DNA of 39,033 nt, from positions 1 through 39,033 of the forward strand of contig JAHEEN010000008.1 in assembly GCA_024640685.1 (NCBI GenBank). Reading direction: 5' to 3'. The notes under the pieces are model-generated. The model searched no databases and had not been told where the DNA came from. It saw only the letters and a list, made by a program, of their open reading frames with translations. Every line of letters starts with the position of its first letter. The stretch's first letter is position 1. Source of the stretch: Rhodospirillaceae bacterium. Lineage in GTDB: Bacteria > Pseudomonadota > Gammaproteobacteria > Steroidobacterales > Rariloculaceae. Below, piece after piece: positions 6,340 to 24,034 of the stretch. The translations under genes were made by a program, and so were the position numbers.

Positions 6340-8736
6340 ATGAGCCCGAAGTGCTTCTCACGACGCCGGCCGGCGGCAACGACTGTTGTCGTCGTGGCTA
6401 TGCTCGCACTCCTCGATACGAGTGCCGGCACGTCGCTGCTCGTTTCACACGCTCGCGCGCAGGATGCCGCGCTGCCGGAGGTGGTTGAGCAACTGCTCGA
6501 CCACCCGCGGCTACCCGCCGTCGCAACGGATCCAGCGGACCGCTACCTGCTGCTCATCGATCAGCATGGCTTGCTGCCGAACGATCAGTTGCGTGCGCCG
6601 AGTATCAACGTCGCGGGTAGAAGGCTGGACCGGCTCACGGGGGGGCCCCACGCACCGATCGCCTATTTCGGCTTGACGATTGTCGACCTTGAATCCGGAA
6701 CACGGACGCGTGTTCACGTGCCGAGCGCCACGACGATCGGTTTCCCGCTTTGGGCTCCGGACGGATCGAGTTTCGCATTCACGGCTACGACCCAGAACGG
6801 CATTGAGCTGTGGATCGGTGATCCACGGACGGGCCATTCGCGCCGTTTAGTCGACGACGCCGTCAACGCGGCGCTCGGCGCGCCGTGTACCTGGATGCCC
6901 GACAGCCGACAACTCATGTGCCGGCTCGTGCCGGACACCCGGGTCGCGTTGCCCGAGGGCGGCGGCGAGGCCGTCTCACGCGTCGCAGCAGCTAATGCCC
7001 CATCGGGATCGGATCGAGATCTCATCCGGCACTTTCTCTATTCCCAGCTCGAGATGATCGATGTAGAGACGGGTGAACGGCGACAGTTGAACCGACCGGC
7101 CGTTATCGAGAGCGTCAGGCCCGCACCGAGCGGACGCATCTTTCTGCTGACGGTCGCAAGGCCACAGTACTCGCGAGTCGGCGCAGTCGAGGCGTGGGCG
7201 CGCCACATCGAAGTGTGGAACACCGACGCGCACCTGCTGCAAGCACTACCGCTCAGGGACGCCGACCAGTCCGATGCGATCAGGGCCGCGCACTGGCAAC
7301 CTACCGCGCCCGAGACCTTGATATGGGTGGCCCGATTTGGCGATAAGGAACGTGTATTGGCTCAGGCTGCGCCGTTCCTCGAACCCGCGACGACTATCTT
7401 CGAGACTCCGCGCCGATTCTCGGGCGTCGAGTGGCTCGAGGACTCGAGCCGGGCGCTCGTCAGCGAATTTGATACAGCTCACCGCATCACACGCACATGG
7501 CTCATCGATGTGGGGAACACCGAGGCACCGCCGCGGCGCCTGGGATCGCGCAGCGTCGATGCAGCCTATCCTGCGCTCGGACCACGGCTGAACCGCAGCA
7601 ATGCCAGTGGCCACGACGTCGTGCGTGTAGACAACAATTCGATCTACGTACTCGGCCGGTCCGTGCAAGATTCCTACATCGACAGGGTCAATCTCGAATC
7701 GATGGAGACCGAGCGCGTTTGGGAATCCGGAGAGCCCGGTCACGAGCGCGTGATCGATCTCTTGACAGCGAACGGCGATCGTCTGCTTACGCAGTATGAG
7801 GCCGCGAGCGAACCGCCCAACTATCGGTTGCACAATCTAGAAAGTGGCGCGATGCAAGCACTCACGCAGCGCACGCACCCAGCGCCCGAGCTCACGCAAA
7901 TCACGCGAATCCCATTGCGCTACCGGCGCAGCGACGGGATCGAGCTCTCTTCGATGCTCTACGTCCCGCGCGGGAGCTTGAAGAACGGCGAGCTGCCGCT
8001 CTTGGTCTGGGCCTATCCGCGCCGCTACGGGCGCGACGTTGCGCCAGTGAGGTCAATGGGCACCGATCGCTTTCCGGATGCGGAGGAAGCCTTCAAGCTC
8101 TCGTTCGTGCTCAGCGGCTACGCAATTCTCGACCACGTGAGCATGCCGATCGTCGGCGAGCTCAACGATACGAACGATACGTTCGTCGAGCAGGTCATCG
8201 CAAATGCCGAGGCAGCGCTGCGCGCGGCAGCGGACACCGGTTACACGGATCCGGCGCGCGCCGGTATCGCCGGGCACAGCTATGGCGCTTTCATGGTCGC
8301 AAACCTGCTCGCGCACAGCGATCTGTTCGCGGCCGGAATAGCAATGAGCGGCGCCTACAACCGAACGCTGACACCGTTTGGGTTTCAAACGGAGCGCCGC
8401 TCACTTTGGGAAGCGCGCGATGCGTACCTAAGAATGTCACCCTATCTTTATTCCGATCGGATCGAGGCGCCGATGTTGCTAATTCACGGAGCGCTCGATG
8501 ACAACGCCGGCACGCCGCCAGCCCAATCGCAACAGTTCTACGATGCGATTCGCTACAACGGCGGTCAGGCGCGCTTAGTGCTATTACCCTACGAGGGACA
8601 TACCTACCGGGGAAGGGAATCCGTATTGTTGACGGCACGCGTCATGCTGAATTGGCTCGACGACCATCTCCGGCGGGCCGACCGCGGCAGCGTAGTTACG
8701 ACGGCCGCTCTCGACGACGCGCGAGTCAAGCTCTAA
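6340..8736 (+). CDS. Secreted S9 family serine peptidase, S9D glutamyl endopeptidase-like
   Basis: This 798-residue protein has an N-terminal export signal (basic SRRRPAATT, hydrophobic core, cleavage near AHARAQDA). A seven-bladed-propeller-like region follows, then a C-terminal alpha/beta hydrolase. The catalytic triad is visible: Ser647 in GHSYGAF, Asp720 in HGALDDN and His754 in YEGHTY. The segments SMPIVGELNDTNDTFVEQ, FMVANLLAHSDLF and AYNRTLTPFGFQTERRSLWEA are close to plant chloroplast GEP and bacterial S9D enzymes, which cut after glutamate. The ribosome binding site before ATG 6340 is weak. The protein should hydrolyse oligopeptides in the periplasm or outside the cell. It stands alone, convergent with the EF-hand gene. 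Confidence 0.85.
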   Translation: MSPKCFSRRRPAATTVVVVAMLALLDTSAGTSLLVSHARAQDAALPEVVEQLLDHPRLPAVATDPADRYLLLIDQHGLLPNDQLRAPSINVAGRRLDRLTGGPHAPIAYFGLTIVDLESGTRTRVHVPSATTIGFPLWAPDGSSFAFTATTQNGIELWIGDPRTGHSRRLVDDAVNAALGAPCTWMPDSRQLMCRLVPDTRVALPEGGGEAVSRVAAANAPSGSDRDLIRHFLYSQLEMIDVETGERRQLNRPAVIESVRPAPSGRIFLLTVARPQYSRVGAVEAWARHIEVWNTDAHLLQALPLRDADQSDAIRAAHWQPTAPETLIWVARFGDKERVLAQAAPFLEPATTIFETPRRFSGVEWLEDSSRALVSEFDTAHRITRTWLIDVGNTEAPPRRLGSRSVDAAYPALGPRLNRSNASGHDVVRVDNNSIYVLGRSVQDSYIDRVNLESMETERVWESGEPGHERVIDLLTANGDRLLTQYEAASEPPNYRLHNLESGAMQALTQRTHPAPELTQITRIPLRYRRSDGIELSSMLYVPRGSLKNGELPLLVWAYPRRYGRDVAPVRSMGTDRFPDAEEAFKLSFVLSGYAILDHVSMPIVGELNDTNDTFVEQVIANAEAALRAAADTGYTDPARAGIAGHSYGAFMVANLLAHSDLFAAGIAMSGAYNRTLTPFGFQTERRSLWEARDAYLRMSPYLYSDRIEAPMLLIHGALDDNAGTPPAQSQQFYDAIRYNGGQARLVLLPYEGHTYRGRESVLLTARVMLNWLDDHLRRADRGSVVTTAALDDARVKL

Positions 8737-8755: not shown

Positions 8756-8786
8756 AAAAAAATGCCCGGCTCCTGAGAGCCGGGCA
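8756..8786 (-). terminator. Rho-independent terminator for the EF-hand gene
   Basis: A perfect 10-bp GC-rich stem (TGCCCGGCTC at 8763-8772, GAGCCGGGCA at 8777-8786) has a four-base loop. On the minus strand it is followed at once by seven Ts (A-run at 8756-8762). It lies 24 bp past the stop of the minus-strand EF-hand gene. On the plus strand there is no T-run after the stem, so it acts mainly for the minus strand. Confidence 0.9.
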
Positions 8787-8810
8787 CCTACTATCAGAAG
8801 ACGCAGACCG

Positions 8811-9020
8811 CTACTGCGCTGCCGCGTACTCTTCCTGGTCGAGTGCGCCGTCCTGGTTCGTATCAGCTGTAGCGAAGTCCAGGCCTTCGATGGCCGCCGC
8901 TTCTTCCATGCTGATCTGACCGTCGGCATTCGTATCGACTTCCTCGAACGAAGGAAGCTCTTGAGCAAGAACGAGACCCGAAAAGCCGATAGCTGCAAGC
9001 GCAAGCAAGTATTTCGTCAT
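8811..9020 (-). CDS. Small periplasmic two-EF-hand protein
   Basis: This 69-residue protein starts MTKYLLALAAIGFSGLVLAQ, a Sec signal with cleavage expected after LAQ. The mature part holds two canonical 12-residue EF-hand loops, DTNADGQISMEE and DTNQDGALDQEE. Each has Asp/Asn at positions 1, 3 and 5, Gly at 6 and Glu at 12, so both should bind metal, normally Ca2+. The ATG at 9020 is preferred over an in-frame upstream GTG because AGAGG lies eight bases before it. The gene lies 263 bp downstream of a same-strand PQQ dehydrogenase, whose cofactor needs a metal ion, so metal buffering for that enzyme is a possible role. Neither loop has the proline at position 2 seen in lanmodulin. Confidence 0.85.
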   Translation of the reverse strand: MTKYLLALAAIGFSGLVLAQELPSFEEVDTNADGQISMEEAAAIEGLDFATADTNQDGALDQEEYAAAQ

Positions 9021-9283
9021 GAGGGAAACCTCTTTCAATGTTAGGGATACAACAACCAAAAAACTCCGATTGCCGCAAACCGGCGTCCGGTACCCGAAAT
9101 AGTCCGAGACGCATGTTCACGACACACGACATATTCTGCGACGCGTACGGCAGATCAACCTGTCTCCAAACCGAGACACCACATTCGAGCTTGAGTATTT
9201 CGAACAAGTGAGCTCGTTAAGGAATTGAAGTCGCTCGGAAACTGTGCGCCCGATGATCGGTAGATTGACAGGTGCGGGAGCGG

Positions 9284-11317
9284 CTAAGGCCGTAGCCGCT
9301 CCGTCACGTAGCCGGCAATATCGCGCGCCTGCGCTGACGTGAACGTGCCCGTGAAGCTCGGCATATCGTTTCGCCCGTCTGCGATGATACGTACGACCTG
9401 GCCGATCGGCAGCCCCGGGGTGATCGGCGGTGCGACGTGGCCGGTGTCGCCATCCTCGCCGTGGCAAGCGACGCAGGCTTGTGCGAACAGCGCCTGCCCG
9501 TTCTCGATGTTCGGCGTGCCGACGATCGCACCGATCACGTTGTTCTCGTCGGGGCCCGCGGCGGCAACCTGTTCCATCGACCCATCGAGCGAGAACAACC
9601 AGACGCTGTCGCCGCGCGGCGAGCCTGCAAAGACATTCCCCGCCGAGTACACAGCGACGTACTGCTCGCCGTCGTGCTCGAACGTCGCGGCCGTCGCGTT
9701 GACGCCCGCTCCGGTCTGGAAGTCCCAGAGCATGTTGCCGGTATCGGAGTCGAGCGCCGTGATGCGACCGTCGCTGCGCCCGACGAACACGAGCCCGCCG
9801 GCTGTCGCAATCGAGCCGGAGTAGCAACGATCAGGCCAGCGTTGCCACCACGCGACCGTGTTCGTGTTGACGTCCATTGCCGTGAAAACGCCGTACGACG
9901 GTACGCCCGATGCGCCGCCGAAGCGCCCGCCCATGTAGCGCTCGCCACCCGGCGGGTCCTCCGGCGCTTCCGGATCGGCCTCGTAGAAATAAACGCGATT
10001 GTTCGCACAAACGAACATCAGTTCGCGCTCGGGATCGTAGGAGCTAGGCGGCCAGTTCGCGCCGCCGCGGGAACCGATGACGCGCTCGTTCCAGAACGGC
10101 ACGAAGACGTGATCGTTCTCGGGCAACGTGAAGCCTTCGGGCGGCACCGGAATCGTGATTGGCTTGAACGGCTCGCCGACCGGTATCGGCTGGGTCGCAG
10201 CCGTCGCCTGGCGCGGCTCCTGCGGCACCGGCACGTCTTCCATGCCGATCAGCGCCTCACCAGTCTCACGGTCGAGCAGATACATCCAGCCGGTCTTATT
10301 GAACGACGCAATCGCCTGACGCTCGCGCCCGTCTATCTCTGCATCGAACAGCACGACCGGCGTCGAGGAGTCGAAATCCCAGATGTCGTGGCGGATCTGC
10401 TGAAAGTGCCAGCGGTACTCGCCGGTTTCGACATCGATCGCAACCGTCGACAGCGAGAACAGGTTGTCGCCAGTGCGCACGGCGCCGTTGAAATCGGGCC
10501 CGGGATTGCCGGTCGAAAAGTACAGCAGGCCGAGTTCGGGATCGATCGCCGGCGTCTGCCAGACCGTCGCACCGCCGTGCTCCCAGACGTTCGATCCGGC
10601 CGGCCATGTGTCATGACCGATCTCGCCGGGTCCCGGAATCGTGTAGAACGTCCAGACGAGCGAGCCATCAGACGCAGCGTACGCCTTGACGCGCCCGCGC
10701 GTGCCAAACTCCGCGCCCGCAAATCCCGTGATCACGAGACCTTCGTAATAGCGTGGCGCCGAAGTGATGCTGTAGCCCTCCTCCCAGCGCTCGGCCTGTA
10801 TCGACCAAACGACGTCACCGGTCGCTTGGTCGAGTGCGACGAGCTTGCCGTCGAGCTGGCCGACGTAGACCTTGCCGTCCCCAAGGCCTAAGCCGCGGCT
10901 CGTCCAGCCGCAGCAAATCGTATCGATGAACGGGTTCAGATCGGCTTCGTAGCTCCACAGCATGTCGCCGCTGTCGATATCGATTGCGAAGACGTCGTCG
11001 GCACCCGTGACGATGTAGAGCACGCCGTCGTGGACGAGCGGCTCGGCTTCGCCCGAATACTGGGGGCCGACGCCGGAGCCGTTCAAGCGCGCTCGCCAGA
11101 CGCCCTTGAGGTTCGCGACGTTATCGCGATTGATCTGCGTCAACGCCGAGTAACGGCGGTTGTAGAGATCGCCGCCGTTCGTCGACCAGTTATCCTCCGG
11201 CACCGTCGCCAATGCATCTGCTGAGAACCCCGTATCGGGCTGTGCGAGGCTCAATGCCGACACTGAAGACAATCCGATCGCGACGAGTTTTAGCGTCGTT
11301 GTTGTTCGCAAGGACAT
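9284..11317 (-). CDS. PQQ-dependent quinohemoprotein alcohol dehydrogenase
   Basis: This 677-residue protein has a Sec signal (MSLRTTTTLKLVAIGLSS), an eight-bladed PQQ propeller and a C-terminal cytochrome c domain with CVACH (Cys615, Cys618, His619). The adjacent cysteines Cys135-Cys136 in DTICCGWTSRG form the vicinal disulfide that sits above PQQ in this family. The catalytic base is Asp314 in HDIWDFDSS. Layout and length fit type II quinohemoprotein alcohol dehydrogenases, which oxidise alcohols in the periplasm and pass electrons through the fused haem. Asp316, two residues after the catalytic aspartate, is the position associated with lanthanide use in the alcohol dehydrogenase branch. 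It is divergent from the flavoprotein gene at 11465. PQQ synthesis genes are not in the window. Confidence 0.9.
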   Translation of the reverse strand: MSLRTTTTLKLVAIGLSSVSALSLAQPDTGFSADALATVPEDNWSTNGGDLYNRRYSALTQINRDNVANLKGVWRARLNGSGVGPQYSGEAEPLVHDGVLYIVTGADDVFAIDIDSGDMLWSYEADLNPFIDTICCGWTSRGLGLGDGKVYVGQLDGKLVALDQATGDVVWSIQAERWEEGYSITSAPRYYEGLVITGFAGAEFGTRGRVKAYAASDGSLVWTFYTIPGPGEIGHDTWPAGSNVWEHGGATVWQTPAIDPELGLLYFSTGNPGPDFNGAVRTGDNLFSLSTVAIDVETGEYRWHFQQIRHDIWDFDSSTPVVLFDAEIDGRERQAIASFNKTGWMYLLDRETGEALIGMEDVPVPQEPRQATAATQPIPVGEPFKPITIPVPPEGFTLPENDHVFVPFWNERVIGSRGGANWPPSSYDPERELMFVCANNRVYFYEADPEAPEDPPGGERYMGGRFGGASGVPSYGVFTAMDVNTNTVAWWQRWPDRCYSGSIATAGGLVFVGRSDGRITALDSDTGNMLWDFQTGAGVNATAATFEHDGEQYVAVYSAGNVFAGSPRGDSVWLFSLDGSMEQVAAAGPDENNVIGAIVGTPNIENGQALFAQACVACHGEDGDTGHVAPPITPGLPIGQVVRIIADGRNDMPSFTGTFTSAQARDIAGYVTERLRP

Positions 11318-11464
11318 CGGAAGTTCCCCCTGACTCGTCCCGAGATACTAGCAGCCGGATCTGTTCAAAGCCCAGCATAGGGGGGGCGTCCAGGCAACGC
11401 GTGCCTGCCACGCCACGCTCGACTATGCTCGTTCGCAGCGGCACATCGATTGGGGAACTGGCAG

Positions 11465-13015
11465 ATGACGATTGAGATCAACCGGCGGCGATTCTTCAAG
11501 GGCGCGGCGGCGCTCACGGTCGGAGGCCTGAGCGCTTCGGCGACGTTGGCGCAATCCGGTGCGGAGCCGGCTGATGCTGCAGGTGTGCTAGAGCTGCAAA
11601 CACGCCGCGCACAACGCTGGGCCGGTCGAGGTCTCTCGGACTGGGTGCGGCCGCGGGACGGCGTCGATCACAACGTGGTCATCGTCGGCGGCGGCCAAAG
11701 CGGCATTGCGATCGCCTATGGGCTCAAGCGCAAGGGCATCGGTAAGGTCGAGGTCATCGACCGCGCGGCGCCCGGCCAGACCGGAATCTGGCGGTCGATC
11801 GCGCGCATGCAGCAGCTGCGGACCGGCAAGACGCTGATCGGGCTCGAGCAGGACAACCCGACACTCGGCTTTCGCGCGTGGTTCGAGACGCTCAACGGCG
11901 CCGACGCGTTCGATGCGCTCGATCGGATTCCGCGGCTCGCCTGGGCCGACTACGTCGATTGGTTTCAAGAGGTCACCGAGACGAGCGTTCGCTATCGCAC
12001 GCGGCTCATCGAGATCGAGCCGCAGGGCGATCTATTGCGCCTGCATCTCGAATCCGAAGGCGTGCGCCGCGAGGAGACGACGCGCAAGGTCGTGCTCGCG
12101 AATGGCTATGCAGGCTCCGGCGGACCGAACGTACCGGGCTTCCTAAGCGCGCTCCCGAACGAGTACTGGAGCCACACGAGCGACGACATCGATTTCGCGG
12201 CTTTGCGCGGCCAGGTCGTAGGCATCGTCGGCGCAGGCTCCTCGGCATTCGATGCGGCCGGCGTCGCGCTCGAGGCCGGCGCCGCCGAGGTTCACATGTT
12301 CAATCGCCGGCCGTACGTCGGCTACCCGGGCGGCTCGCCGGCCACGGGGCCGAGCGATCGCGGCCATGCGAACGCTCGTGAAATGGCGTTCGAGCTGCCC
12401 GACATCGTGCGCTGGCGCAACTACCTGCGCGGCGATCGCAGTGTCGCAACGGCACCGACCGACTCGATCGAGCGCGCCGTCAGGCACGACAACTTCCGTG
12501 TGCATCTGGAAAGCTCGCTCGCCGACGTTCGCATCGACAGCGGCCGAGTCGCCGCGAACGTCCGCGGCCAACCGTGGCGTCTCGACCATCTGATTGCCGG
12601 CACGGGCTACCGAATCGACATCGCGACGCAGACCGAGCTTTCCGGCATCCAGGAGTCGATCGCGCGCTGGGCCGACCGGTACGAGCCCGAGCCGGGCGAG
12701 GACAACGCCGGCGGCGCGATTCATCCCTACCTCGGCACAGGCTTCGAGTTTCTACCGCGCGGCAGCACCGGTGGCGAGTACCTGCGCAACATCCACTGCT
12801 TCAATCTATCGGCTCGCCTGAGCTTCGGCATGTCGATCGGCGACGTGCCGAGCTGTGTCGACCATCCGCGCCTGGTTGCGACGATCGCACGAGATCTGTA
12901 CGTCGAGAGCGTCGATGTCGCGGCGCACGAGCGCTGGGCCGAGTCGCCGATGGCCCCGGCGGACCCGGCGCCGTACGAAAGGGCGATCGCGGCGAGCACG
13001 AGCCAGGCTGCCTAA
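11465..13015 (+). CDS. Tat-exported FAD/NAD(P)-binding oxidoreductase (flavin monooxygenase-like)
   Basis: This 516-residue flavoprotein begins at ATG 11465, eight bases after GGGGA (11452-11456). The twin-arginine signal reads NRRRFFKGAAALTVGGLSAS. Two Rossmann motifs are visible: VVIVGGGQSGIAIAYGLKRKG near residue 70 for FAD, and VVGIVGAGSSAFDAAGVALEAG near residue 250 for a second nucleotide. This arrangement is shared by class B flavin monooxygenases and related NAD(P)/FAD oxidoreductases. The hydroxylase fingerprint FxGxxxHxxx(Y/F) appears only loosely, as YWSHTSDD. A periplasmic flavoprotein would not see NADPH, so I expect a dehydrogenase or oxidase role or a bound nucleotide instead. 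It shares a 147-bp divergent promoter region with the PQQ dehydrogenase. Confidence 0.75.
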   Translation: MTIEINRRRFFKGAAALTVGGLSASATLAQSGAEPADAAGVLELQTRRAQRWAGRGLSDWVRPRDGVDHNVVIVGGGQSGIAIAYGLKRKGIGKVEVIDRAAPGQTGIWRSIARMQQLRTGKTLIGLEQDNPTLGFRAWFETLNGADAFDALDRIPRLAWADYVDWFQEVTETSVRYRTRLIEIEPQGDLLRLHLESEGVRREETTRKVVLANGYAGSGGPNVPGFLSALPNEYWSHTSDDIDFAALRGQVVGIVGAGSSAFDAAGVALEAGAAEVHMFNRRPYVGYPGGSPATGPSDRGHANAREMAFELPDIVRWRNYLRGDRSVATAPTDSIERAVRHDNFRVHLESSLADVRIDSGRVAANVRGQPWRLDHLIAGTGYRIDIATQTELSGIQESIARWADRYEPEPGEDNAGGAIHPYLGTGFEFLPRGSTGGEYLRNIHCFNLSARLSFGMSIGDVPSCVDHPRLVATIARDLYVESVDVAAHERWAESPMAPADPAPYERAIAASTSQAA

Positions 13016-15091: not shown

Positions 15092-16051
15092 ATGAACAAT
15101 GCGACGACTCTATCGTGCGCGCTGGCCGCTATCGCCTGCGGGCTTCTGGCCGGTCTCGCGGTCGCGCAAGATCGTGCACCGGCCGAGTTCCGCGAGGTCG
15201 CGCCCGACCTCTACTTCAACTTCGACTTCGATGGCTCGAACTCCGCGGTACTCGTCACCGACGACGGCGTGCTCGTCGTCGACACGCGAATGCACCCCGA
15301 CGATGCCGAGGACTTACTCGACCAAATCCGGCAAGTGACAGATGCGCCGATTCGCTACGTGGTTGTCAGTCAGCATCATGGCGACCACTACATGGGCAAT
15401 AGCGTCTTCAAGCGGGAAGGCGCGACGATCATCGCGCATCCGGATACTCAGGCCGTCATCGAGGAGCGCTTCGAGTTCGAGCGCACGACGCGACCGTTTG
15501 CGGCTCGCGGCCAAGATCCCGACGAGGTCGTGCTCGTGCTGCCTGACGTGCTGTTCTCTAGCCGCGCAAAGATCGTGCTCGGTGGCCGCACGGTCGAGCT
15601 GATCTATCTCGGACCCGGACAGAACGAAGGCGACACGCTCGTCTATTTTCCCCACGCGCGTGCGCTGCACACCGGCGGCGTGTTTCACAATCGCAGCTGG
15701 GCCAACACGTCGTACGCACCATCACTCGCTGGATGGGTCAGCGTGCTGCGCACAATGCAGACGATCGATGCCGATATCTATCTGCCGCCGCACGGCGACC
15801 TCGCGACAGGCACCGATATCGAAAACTTCACAGCGTTCATCGACGAGATCGACTCGAGCATGCGCGCAGCGATTGACGACGGGCTATCGCTGGAACAGAT
15901 ACTCGATACGCTGACGTTCGACGCGTATTCGGACTGGCGCGGCTACGATCGCAGGCCGCGCAATTTGACCGCAGTCTACGAGCTGATGACGCAGGGTGAG
16001 GCGAACTATTTCGTGCCGGCCAGCCGAGCGACGCCTGCGCCGGCAAACTGA
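15092..16051 (+). CDS. Secreted metallo-beta-lactamase-fold protein with altered metal site
   Basis: This 319-residue protein begins with a signal peptide (CALAAIACGLLAGLAVAQ) and has the MBL fold of quinoprotein-associated and SoxH-like hydrolases. The HxHxDH motif reads QHHGDH, so the first histidine is Gln94 while His96, Asp98 and His99 remain. The usual GHTxGD histidine is Gln177 in GPGQNEGD, and the usual TGD aspartate is Gly196 in HTGGVF. His234 in LPPHGD is kept. Ligands for one zinc site (Asp98, His99, His234) therefore persist and those for the other are mostly lost. It is the third gene of the propeller-cytochrome operon, 12 bp after the cytochrome gene. Substrate unknown; it may be monozinc or non-catalytic. 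Confidence 0.8.
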   Translation: MNNATTLSCALAAIACGLLAGLAVAQDRAPAEFREVAPDLYFNFDFDGSNSAVLVTDDGVLVVDTRMHPDDAEDLLDQIRQVTDAPIRYVVVSQHHGDHYMGNSVFKREGATIIAHPDTQAVIEERFEFERTTRPFAARGQDPDEVVLVLPDVLFSSRAKIVLGGRTVELIYLGPGQNEGDTLVYFPHARALHTGGVFHNRSWANTSYAPSLAGWVSVLRTMQTIDADIYLPPHGDLATGTDIENFTAFIDEIDSSMRAAIDDGLSLEQILDTLTFDAYSDWRGYDRRPRNLTAVYELMTQGEANYFVPASRATPAPAN

Positions 16052-22186: not shown

Positions 22187-24034
22187 ATGAACCTTTGCGC
22201 ACGACCGCTGTTACTGTTGGCCTTTTTACCGGCATTGGCGTTCACACAAGATTCGACGGTCAGCGGCGAGGCTGTCTACGCGCAGTACTGCGCATCGTGT
22301 CACGAGCAAACCGAGACGCGCATCGTGACGCGCGAAGCGCTCGAGCTGATGTCGCCCGAGCGAATTCTCCGCACGCTCGACTTCGGCGCGATGATGACGA
22401 TCGCCTACCCGATGCGCCGCGACGAGCGGCTCGCAGTCGCAAGCTACCTCGGCAAGGGCGAGGACGAGTCGCAGCTGCCGCCGAGCGCTTATTGCCCCGC
22501 AGAGACCGAGATGTTCGCCGACAGCGCGGCTGGCAGCTGGCGTGGCTGGAGCCCGAGTGCCGCGAACACGCGTTATCAAGATCCCCAGCGCGCCGGCATG
22601 ACGGCCGCCGACCTCGACCGCCTCGAGCTCAGGTGGGCGTTCGGTTTTCCGGGAGACGTCATCGCGTTCGCGGCATCGACGCTCGTCGACGGCACGCTGT
22701 TCGTCGGCAGCGCAGGCGGCATCGTCTTCGCGCTCGATGCGGCGTCAGGTTGCGTGCACTGGCAGTACGATGCCCGCGGCCCGGTGCGCGCCGCACCCGT
22801 TATCGCCGAAGATGGCGACACGCGCACGTTGCTGTTCAGCGATCAGAACGGCGGCGTGCACGCGATCGATGCGCAGACCGGCGCGCAGCGCTGGCGCGTG
22901 CGCGTCGAGGAGCACGAGGCGACGCGCTTGACCGGATCGTTTGCACTTGCCGACGGTGTCGTGTTCGTGCCCGCTGCGTCGTGGGAAGAGACGCGCTCGA
23001 TCAATGCCGAATACGAGTGCTGCACGTTTCGCGGCAGCATCACGGCGTTGCGTGTCACCGATGGCTCGCGCCTCTGGAAGACCTATCTGATCGACGAGCC
23101 CGTGCGCACCGGCGCGACGAGCGTCGGCACTGCAACGTACGGCCCATCCGGCGCCGGCGTGTGGTCGACGCCGACCGTCGATGCGGGACGCGGTCTGCTG
23201 TACGTCACGACGGGCGATAACTACTCGCACCCGGCCACGGCGAGCAGCGATGCGATCGTCGCGCTCGATCTCGACGACGGGCACATCGTCTGGTCGCAGC
23301 AAACGACACCGAACGACGTCTACAACTCATCCTGCGGCACGCAGGGGCCGAACTGCCCAGAGGACCGTGGCCCGGATTACGACTTCGGCGCAGCGGCACT
23401 GGTCGTGCCGATTGGCGACGGTCGCGACGTGCTCGTCGCCGGGCAGAAATCCGGCGTCGTCTACGGCCTCGATCCGGACGATGCCGGCCGCATGCTCTGG
23501 CAAACGCGTGTCGGCGAGGGCGGCGTCAACGGCGGCGTGCAGTGGGGCATGGCGAGTGACGGCGCCTACGTTTACGCATCGGTATCGGATGTCGTCCGTC
23601 CGCGCGGCCTGATGGCGCGACCGGGCGCGGTCGGCAACGCGCCGCTCGACCCCGAGCTCGGTGGCGGTTTAACCGCGTTGAGTCCCGCCGATGGCAGCCG
23701 CGTCTGGCACTCGCCGGGCCATGCGTGCACACCGCCGAAGCCCGGCTGCAGCCCGGCGCAACCCGGAGCACTGACGGCGATCGAAGGTGCCGTATTCTCC
23801 GGGTCGCTCGATGGACACCTGCGCGCGTTCGCCGCCGACGACGGTCGCCTGCTGTGGGATTTCGACACCGCGAGGGCGTATTCGACCGTTAACGGCGTCT
23901 CAGGCTCCGGCGGATCGCTGGACGGTGCGGGCCCGGTCATCGCCGGCGGCATGGTGTTCGTGAACTCAGGTTACCCGCGTTTCGGCGGCATGCCGGGCAA
24001 CGTGTTGCTCGCGTTCGGACTTGCGGCACCATAG
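22187..24034 (+). CDS. Cytochrome c-PQQ propeller dehydrogenase (polyvinyl alcohol dehydrogenase-like)
   Basis: This 615-residue protein starts with a signal peptide (LLLLAFLPALAFTQ), then a small cytochrome c domain with CASCH (Cys35, Cys38, His39). A PQQ-type propeller fills the rest, with repeats such as GIVFALDAASGCVHWQYDA, GVHAIDAQTGAQRWRVRVEE and DGHLRAFAADDGRLLWDF. The order N-terminal haem then propeller is opposite to that of the quinohemoprotein at 9284. It matches polyvinyl alcohol dehydrogenases, which also carry GPDYDFGAAALVV-like segments. The likely role is periplasmic oxidation of an alcohol or polymer with electron transfer to the fused haem. TATACT at 22147-22152 is a possible -10, with a poor -35. 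The Tat amidohydrolase follows after 30 bp. Confidence 0.8.
   Translation: MNLCARPLLLLAFLPALAFTQDSTVSGEAVYAQYCASCHEQTETRIVTREALELMSPERILRTLDFGAMMTIAYPMRRDERLAVASYLGKGEDESQLPPSAYCPAETEMFADSAAGSWRGWSPSAANTRYQDPQRAGMTAADLDRLELRWAFGFPGDVIAFAASTLVDGTLFVGSAGGIVFALDAASGCVHWQYDARGPVRAAPVIAEDGDTRTLLFSDQNGGVHAIDAQTGAQRWRVRVEEHEATRLTGSFALADGVVFVPAASWEETRSINAEYECCTFRGSITALRVTDGSRLWKTYLIDEPVRTGATSVGTATYGPSGAGVWSTPTVDAGRGLLYVTTGDNYSHPATASSDAIVALDLDDGHIVWSQQTTPNDVYNSSCGTQGPNCPEDRGPDYDFGAAALVVPIGDGRDVLVAGQKSGVVYGLDPDDAGRMLWQTRVGEGGVNGGVQWGMASDGAYVYASVSDVVRPRGLMARPGAVGNAPLDPELGGGLTALSPADGSRVWHSPGHACTPPKPGCSPAQPGALTAIEGAVFSGSLDGHLRAFAADDGRLLWDFDTARAYSTVNGVSGSGGSLDGAGPVIAGGMVFVNSGYPRFGGMPGNVLLAFGLAAP

Follow-up and report, generated by a model that had tools for sequence, protein, structure and literature searches.

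Type II quinohemoprotein alcohol dehydrogenases (1kv9, 1yiq, and 1kb0) combine a propeller that binds pyrroloquinoline quinone (PQQ) with a fused C-terminal heme c, a vicinal Cys pair, and Glu, Asn, and Asp metal ligands; two positions after the catalytic Asp (the +2 position) they have Thr. The lanthanide-dependent dehydrogenases PedH and XoxF (6zcw, 6dam, 6oc5, and 4mae) have a second Asp there, giving the motif D-x-D, and the membrane glucose/quinate dehydrogenases, represented by E. coli Gcd, have D-x-D as well. According to Voutsinos et al. (2025, PMC11996626), D-x-D is found in 61% of 6,328 ocean PQQ dehydrogenases, Gammaproteobacteria are among the hosts, and single genomes hold up to 70 D-x-D genes. 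We analyzed a stretch of 39,033 nucleotides (hereafter the window; contig JAHEEN010000008.1, assembly GCA_024640685.1) from a Rhodospirillaceae bacterium that GTDB places in the Rariloculaceae. It encodes a quinohemoprotein dehydrogenase that is one more D-x-D quinoprotein, of the type already published as the ocean majority, with which it shares the motif and the occurrence of many copies per genome. The window enzyme is heme-fused, whereas the main text of the ocean study never uses the word cytochrome. The heme-fused clade to which the enzyme belongs, and the place of this clade next to the glucose dehydrogenases, are noteworthy; we noticed no characterised enzyme of the clade in literature searches, which is no proof of absence.

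We favor, at a probability of roughly 0.55, the reading that this is a periplasmic quinohemoprotein dehydrogenase whose lanthanide-capable site probably uses a lanthanide, at least facultatively, that its PQQ is imported, and that the EF-hand protein encoded next to it is an unrelated neighbor. The enzyme would oxidise an alcohol or a sugar hydroxyl at PQQ in an eight-bladed propeller, from which electrons would reach the respiratory chain by way of the fused C-terminal heme c. Glu203, Asn271, Asp314, and Asp316 would hold the metal beneath PQQ, in a site that could accommodate a lanthanide; that the enzyme uses one is plausible. No PqqC was found, and PQQ for loading would be imported through a PqqU-type receptor. 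This reading is built on sequence observations, namely the domains, the heme site, the ligand residues, the missing PqqC match, the PqqU homologue, and the synteny of the EF-hand gene.

The propeller domain PF01011 scored 331.1 bits (gathering score 26.7) and the C-terminal Cytochrome_CBB3 domain PF13442 scored 47.5 bits (cut-off 27). Because both exceed their cut-offs, the dehydrogenase is a quinohemoprotein, and its open reading frame (ORF) contains HDIWDFDSS, which holds Asp314 and Asp316; on these points the reading made earlier from the DNA letters and their ORFs (the sequence-only reading) was right. The NCBIfam model for the methanol/ethanol subfamily, TIGR03075, gave 445.2 bits (cut-off 480.05) and the model for membrane glucose/quinate dehydrogenases, TIGR03074, gave 235.6 bits (cut-off 832.65), both below threshold. 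In sequence, the solved structures closest to the dehydrogenase are two quinohemoprotein alcohol dehydrogenases, 1yiq (296 bits) and 1kv9 (274 bits), followed by the lanthanide-dependent PedH (269 bits). The AlphaFold2 model of the dehydrogenase has a mean predicted local distance difference test (pLDDT) score of 82.5. Compared to this model, 1kv9 gave a Z score of 44.8 (root mean square deviation 2.7, 556 residues aligned), PedH 44.7 (2.4, 504 residues), and XoxF 44.5 (2.1, 503 residues). The type II enzymes head both lists, and on the predicted model 1kv9, PedH, and XoxF are equally good structure matches.

In an alignment with PDB chains and plasmid references, the four metal-site residues of the dehydrogenase (Table 1) are the same as those in the XoxF and PedH rows. 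The rows for MxaF and the type II quinohemoprotein alcohol dehydrogenases have the first three ligands and Ala or Thr as the fourth. In E. coli Gcd, WDMD is present, and the ligand Glu, the ligand Asn, and the Cys pair are all missing. Because Glu203 and Asn271 are kept in the window enzyme and replaced in Gcd, its metal site belongs to the alcohol dehydrogenase type rather than to that of E. coli Gcd. Among the characterised rows of this panel, the combination of Glu, Asn, and a +2 Asp is found in the lanthanide enzymes XoxF and PedH only. Several features separate the window enzyme from PedH and XoxF: its heme is fused, Ala precedes the Glu ligand, Lys replaces Arg at the position of MxaF Arg331, and it falls into another clade; the Lys is shared with the type II enzymes and with Gcd.

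Relatives of the dehydrogenase were fetched with six peptide patterns, none of which covers the +2 Asp; 258 stretches matched, 134 of these were relatives, and the best 80 were kept, giving 79 loci (L017-L095). ORFs had to lie on the plus strand, exceed 500 amino acids, and contain WD and H[FY]Q somewhere in the protein; the second Asp was not required, and the partial L093 was excluded. From the resulting 85 family ORFs, L033_2368 and L041_302 were removed as members of other tree clades, and own_L005 was added, leaving 84 clade members in addition to the window enzyme. Further own-genome matches (L011/L015, at window positions 22187-24034, and L014) stand outside the residue tables. Asp314 and Asp316 are each present in 84/84 members, and the full quartet of ligands in 78/84 (individual counts are given in Table 1). 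Chance does not explain the conservation of the +2 Asp, since it is complete in the clade and none of the fetching patterns covers this residue. Among the 34 members aligned to the window dehydrogenase, identity to it ranges from 48 to 74%; the conservation claim is therefore limited to its own clade. The count for the CxxCH motif leans upward, because the heme motif was one of the six patterns.

Two members of the clade (L086 and L094) are heme-less; the Cys pair is replaced by PF in these, and Glu, Asn, and both Asp are retained. Three loci (L018, L022, and L030) contain same-strand tandem pairs of the dehydrogenase, in which one copy has the C-terminal CxxCH and the other does not.

Several results weigh against assigning lanthanide use with confidence. 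The +2 column was masked for tree building, and ref_L114 was omitted. The clade groups with glucose dehydrogenase-like proteins, both in a quick tree with 60 rows (Shimodaira-Hasegawa approximate likelihood ratio test, SH-aLRT, 94) and in the careful tree, which retained 46 of these rows (bootstrap/SH-aLRT 99/94); this is its nearest large group. XoxF, MxaF, PedH, and the type II quinohemoprotein alcohol dehydrogenases group together on the opposite side (100/99), and the clade that contains 1kv9, 1yiq, and 1kb0 (six rows, 100/100) excludes the window dehydrogenase. Forcing the clade onto the alcohol dehydrogenase side cost 9.7 log units and gave p-AU 0.024 in the approximately unbiased (AU) test. 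We consider this moderate evidence, because the groups for the test were defined once the quick tree had been inspected. The sequence-only reading took the +2 Asp as the mark of a lanthanide enzyme, and it had named placement in a PQQ-dehydrogenase tree beforehand as one of the tests that could refute this claim. The residues agree with it (D-x-D in every clade member, with Glu203 and Asn271 present); the placement, apart from XoxF and PedH, does not.

The surroundings of the ligands add to these points. A review names two further XoxF residues, in XoxF2 numbering: Gly171, which is Ala in MxaF, and Thr259, which is Pro there (PMC11845868). The window enzyme has Ala202 before its Glu ligand, where the XoxF and PedH rows have Gly; within the clade this residue is Ala in 62/84 and Gly in 22/84 members. 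Three positions after the Asn ligand it has Pro274, where XoxF has Thr, and Pro is found here in all 84 members; this is weak counter-evidence, because PedH also has Pro at this position. In the AlphaFold2 model, the mean pLDDT for blocks of ten residues is 85 around Glu203, 60 around Asn271, and 63 around Asp314/316, so that two ligand loops are weakly modelled. In the genome to which the window belongs (G000), the lanmodulin model NF053806 had seven matches, none of them over its cut-off. This genome is a 3.49-Mb draft with 16 TIGR03075 matches, and single gene absences in it are uncertain because it is about 93% complete (92.95%).

The best surviving alternative uses these same points: an enzyme of the same class would depend on Ca2+ (or Mg2+) in vivo, and the +2 Asp would be an old residue and no lanthanide marker, as in the membrane glucose dehydrogenases. 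We regard this as a real possibility, though a somewhat doubtful one. It draws on the position of the clade nearer to the glucose dehydrogenases, on the WDMD of E. coli Gcd, on the match of Ala202 and Pro274 to MxaF, and on the presence of D-x-D on both sides of the tree; the last fits an old residue that may have been lost in the calcium enzymes. The motif also need not predict metal tolerance, because PedE of Methylopila, a calcium enzyme with Ser at +2, is reported to retain 60-80% of its activity with 10 mM lanthanides (PMC10409515). What speaks for a lanthanide is the retention of the Glu and Asn ligands alongside the extra Asp in most of the clade, a combination confined to lanthanide enzymes among the characterised rows, whereas the Gcd-type rows lack both ligands. 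The caution attached to the sequence-only reading, that membrane glucose and quinate dehydrogenases read WD-x-D and are not lanthanide enzymes, is correct for the motif of Gcd; it is not simply transferable to the window enzyme, because both ligands and the Cys pair are missing from Gcd.

A paralogue in the same genome (L001; G000:C107:1789-3378, plus strand) clusters with the type II quinohemoprotein alcohol dehydrogenases and has 709.8 bits to 1kv9. It reads WDFDATQ, with Asp at the +2 position where the characterised type II enzymes have Thr, a possible metal switch inside this subfamily.

With respect to PQQ supply, PqqC was not found in G000 and is present in only two of the 18 genomes of the family (G005 and G015); no match to PqqE in G000 reached its cut-off. 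Dehydrogenase matches are present in 17/18 family genomes, with up to 47 in one genome (counted as stretches, not genes). A homologue of E. coli PqqU (E <= 1e-20) was found in all 18 family genomes (G000-G017), and in 21/29 genomes overall. Munder et al. (2025, PMC12124388) report that PQQ scavenging is widespread, mostly in Gammaproteobacteria, and give as the PqqU signature an aromatic residue at position 99 and Arg at 304 and 365 (E. coli numbering). We aligned ten homologues, one from G018 and the others from nine of the 18 family genomes; Phe99, Arg304, and Arg365 are present in every one. The homologue in G000 (L186; G000:C145:9926-11836), which is located outside the window, has F, R, and R at these positions and also R536. 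Because PqqC is mostly absent and a PqqU homologue is present throughout, the family genomes look like those of PQQ scavengers, and the host bacterium is probably a scavenger that imports PQQ through a PqqU-type receptor.

At PqqU position 274, Glu is found in eight of the nine aligned family members, including G000; G003 has Lys, and G018 has Gln. From modelling, Glu at this position was proposed to permit the import of metal along with PQQ, and a change to Glu inactivated E. coli PqqU (Munder et al. 2025, PMC12124388). The family may import PQQ and metal together through this PqqU variant, and a PQQ-lanthanide complex would then load the whole set of D-x-D quinoproteins, the heme-fused clade included; we consider this extension unlikely. 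Of the own-genome quinoproteins, nine were aligned; each has Asp at the +2 position, none having the calcium-type Ala, Ser, or Thr, and four of them (L004, L007, L008, and L009) are without the Glu and Asn ligands in the alignment.

An "empty" quinoprotein, one that has lost the use of PQQ, in a genome seemingly unable to make it, would account for the missing PqqC and PqqE matches and for the 345.9 bits to TIGR04528 (acido-empty-quinoprotein group A), and is very improbable given that this score is below both the cut-off of 650 and the score to TIGR03075, that the genome has a PqqU homologue carrying the published signature, and that most of the mapped PQQ contacts are in place. The contact positions mapped were those of methanol dehydrogenase. 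In the window enzyme they are either unchanged or carry a substitution also found in characterised relatives (Ala for Ser174, Lys for Arg331), except for two Trp positions that vary between families. The sub-threshold score and this mapping led us to reject the empty-quinoprotein reading.

Other window genes touch on quinoproteins. A further propeller protein of the PQQ type is encoded at 22187-24034 (plus strand); its N-terminal region matches cytochrome c weakly (25 bits, cut-off 27), and no D-x-D is seen by eye. The ORF at 15092-16051 (plus strand) encodes a protein of the metallo-beta-lactamase fold, and the NCBIfam model that this protein matches best, at 122.7 bits (cut-off 280), is "quinoprotein relay system zinc metallohydrolase 2".

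The next gene on the same strand as the dehydrogenase encodes, as the sequence-only reading stated, a secreted protein with two EF-hands: a hydrophobic leader was recognized by eye, two loops are present, and PF13202 scored 40.6 bits (cut-off 25.9). The listed ORFs of the two genes are 224 bases apart. A second, weaker terminator-like hairpin lies between them in addition to the one in Table 1; two such sites were observed in the region and 1.0 was expected from shuffled sequences.

The same earlier reading saw in this protein a possible metal carrier, which would supply metal, perhaps a lanthanide, to the dehydrogenase in the periplasm. We find such a role highly improbable and reject it on synteny and on comparison with lanmodulin. 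It was suggested by adjacency on the same strand, secretion, and two EF loops separated by 12 residues, within the 12-13 residues between adjacent loops given for lanmodulin (PMC11845868). This spacing is unspecific, since it also occurs in 10/51 gaps of non-orthologous EF-hand proteins, in which 16 residues is commoner (14/51); the sample comprised 60 gaps in 37 proteins, whose loci had been retrieved because they matched EF-hand or lanmodulin, with nine of the gaps coming from the window protein and its orthologues. The match to the lanmodulin hidden Markov model is weak (25.6 bits, cut-off 135), as it is for three orthologues (26.2, 29.3, and 27.8 bits). Lanmodulin is described as having four loops and at least one Pro at loop position 2 (PMC9260416, PMC11845868); the window protein has two loops, both with Thr at this position. 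Together with the low score, this rules it out as a lanmodulin.

Homologues of the EF-hand protein (E <= 0.001) were found in 9/29 genomes, its own included. An S9 peptidase homologue is convergent with the EF-hand gene in 3/8 orthologous loci (L169, L170, and L171; 51-59% identity), as it is in the window. The dehydrogenase was beside the EF-hand orthologue in 0/8 loci; the upstream flank, on which the window carries the enzyme gene, was visible in 6/8. Conversely, other genes and no EF-hand gene are found downstream of the three nearest dehydrogenase orthologues with this DNA in view, those in G002 (82% identity, partial), G001 (77%, partial), and L017 (73%). When the EF-hand protein was compared by tblastn with the 79 loci L017-L095, no orthologue was found (best E 0.79). 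Where a neighbor is conserved, it is the S9 peptidase, and the adjacency of EF-hand and dehydrogenase genes looks local and is probably accidental.

Table 1. Features of the dehydrogenase and of the genes next to it, in window coordinates.
Feature	Position	Strand	Basis
PQQ- and heme c-containing (quinohemoprotein) dehydrogenase, 677 amino acids	9284..11317	-	ORF, Pfam PF01011 and PF13442, PDB relatives, AlphaFold2 model, structure comparison
Vicinal Cys pair Cys135-Cys136, alcohol dehydrogenase type	10910..10915	-	Alignment; C135 in 80/84 and C136 in 80/84 clade members
Glu203, metal-ligand position	10709..10711	-	Aligned with MxaF Glu177; 79/84 clade members
Asn271, metal-ligand position	10505..10507	-	Aligned with MxaF Asn261; 83/84 clade members
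Asp314-Phe-Asp316, catalytic Asp and +2 Asp	10370..10378	-	Both Asp in 84/84 clade members
CVACH heme c site, residues 615-619	9461..9475	-	PF13442; CxxCH in 72/84 clade members
Short secreted two-EF-hand protein, neighbor judged to be outside the system	8811..9020 (likely ATG at 9020; listed ORF 8811-9059)	-	ORF, Pfam, synteny
EF-hand loop 1, DTNADGQISMEE	8901..8936	-	
EF-hand loop 2, DTNQDGALDQEE	8829..8864	-	
S9-family peptidase	6340..8736	+	PF00326, 85.1 bits; kept beside EF-hand orthologues in 3/8 loci
Terminator-like hairpin 3' of the EF-hand gene	8760..8789	-	Consensus scan, 13-pair stem

On its other side, the dehydrogenase gene is divergent, across 132 bases, from a gene for a flavoprotein (11450-13015, plus strand) with an RRRFF leader that by eye resembles a twin-arginine translocation signal; no homologue of this flavoprotein was found in loci L017-L095 at E 1e-10. 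Farther away, the window encodes a YeiH-family protein (PF03601; 3214-4332, plus strand) near a YedE/YeeE-type sulphur transport protein (PF04143; 4806-6011, minus strand), and a bacterial RCC1-repeat protein (PF13540 and PF00415; 19053-20639, plus strand).

If the window enzyme runs on calcium, D-x-D would be an unsafe marker for lanthanide use even where Glu and Asn are intact, and published estimates based on the motif, such as the 61% given for PQQ dehydrogenases in the ocean, would be overestimates. If it is lanthanide-dependent, lanthanide catalysis would reach a large heme-fused clade in apparent PQQ scavengers. Should a PQQ-lanthanide complex be imported and load these enzymes, lanthanide catalysis would extend beyond the proven branches, and cofactor and metal would be gained in one step, without lanmodulin.

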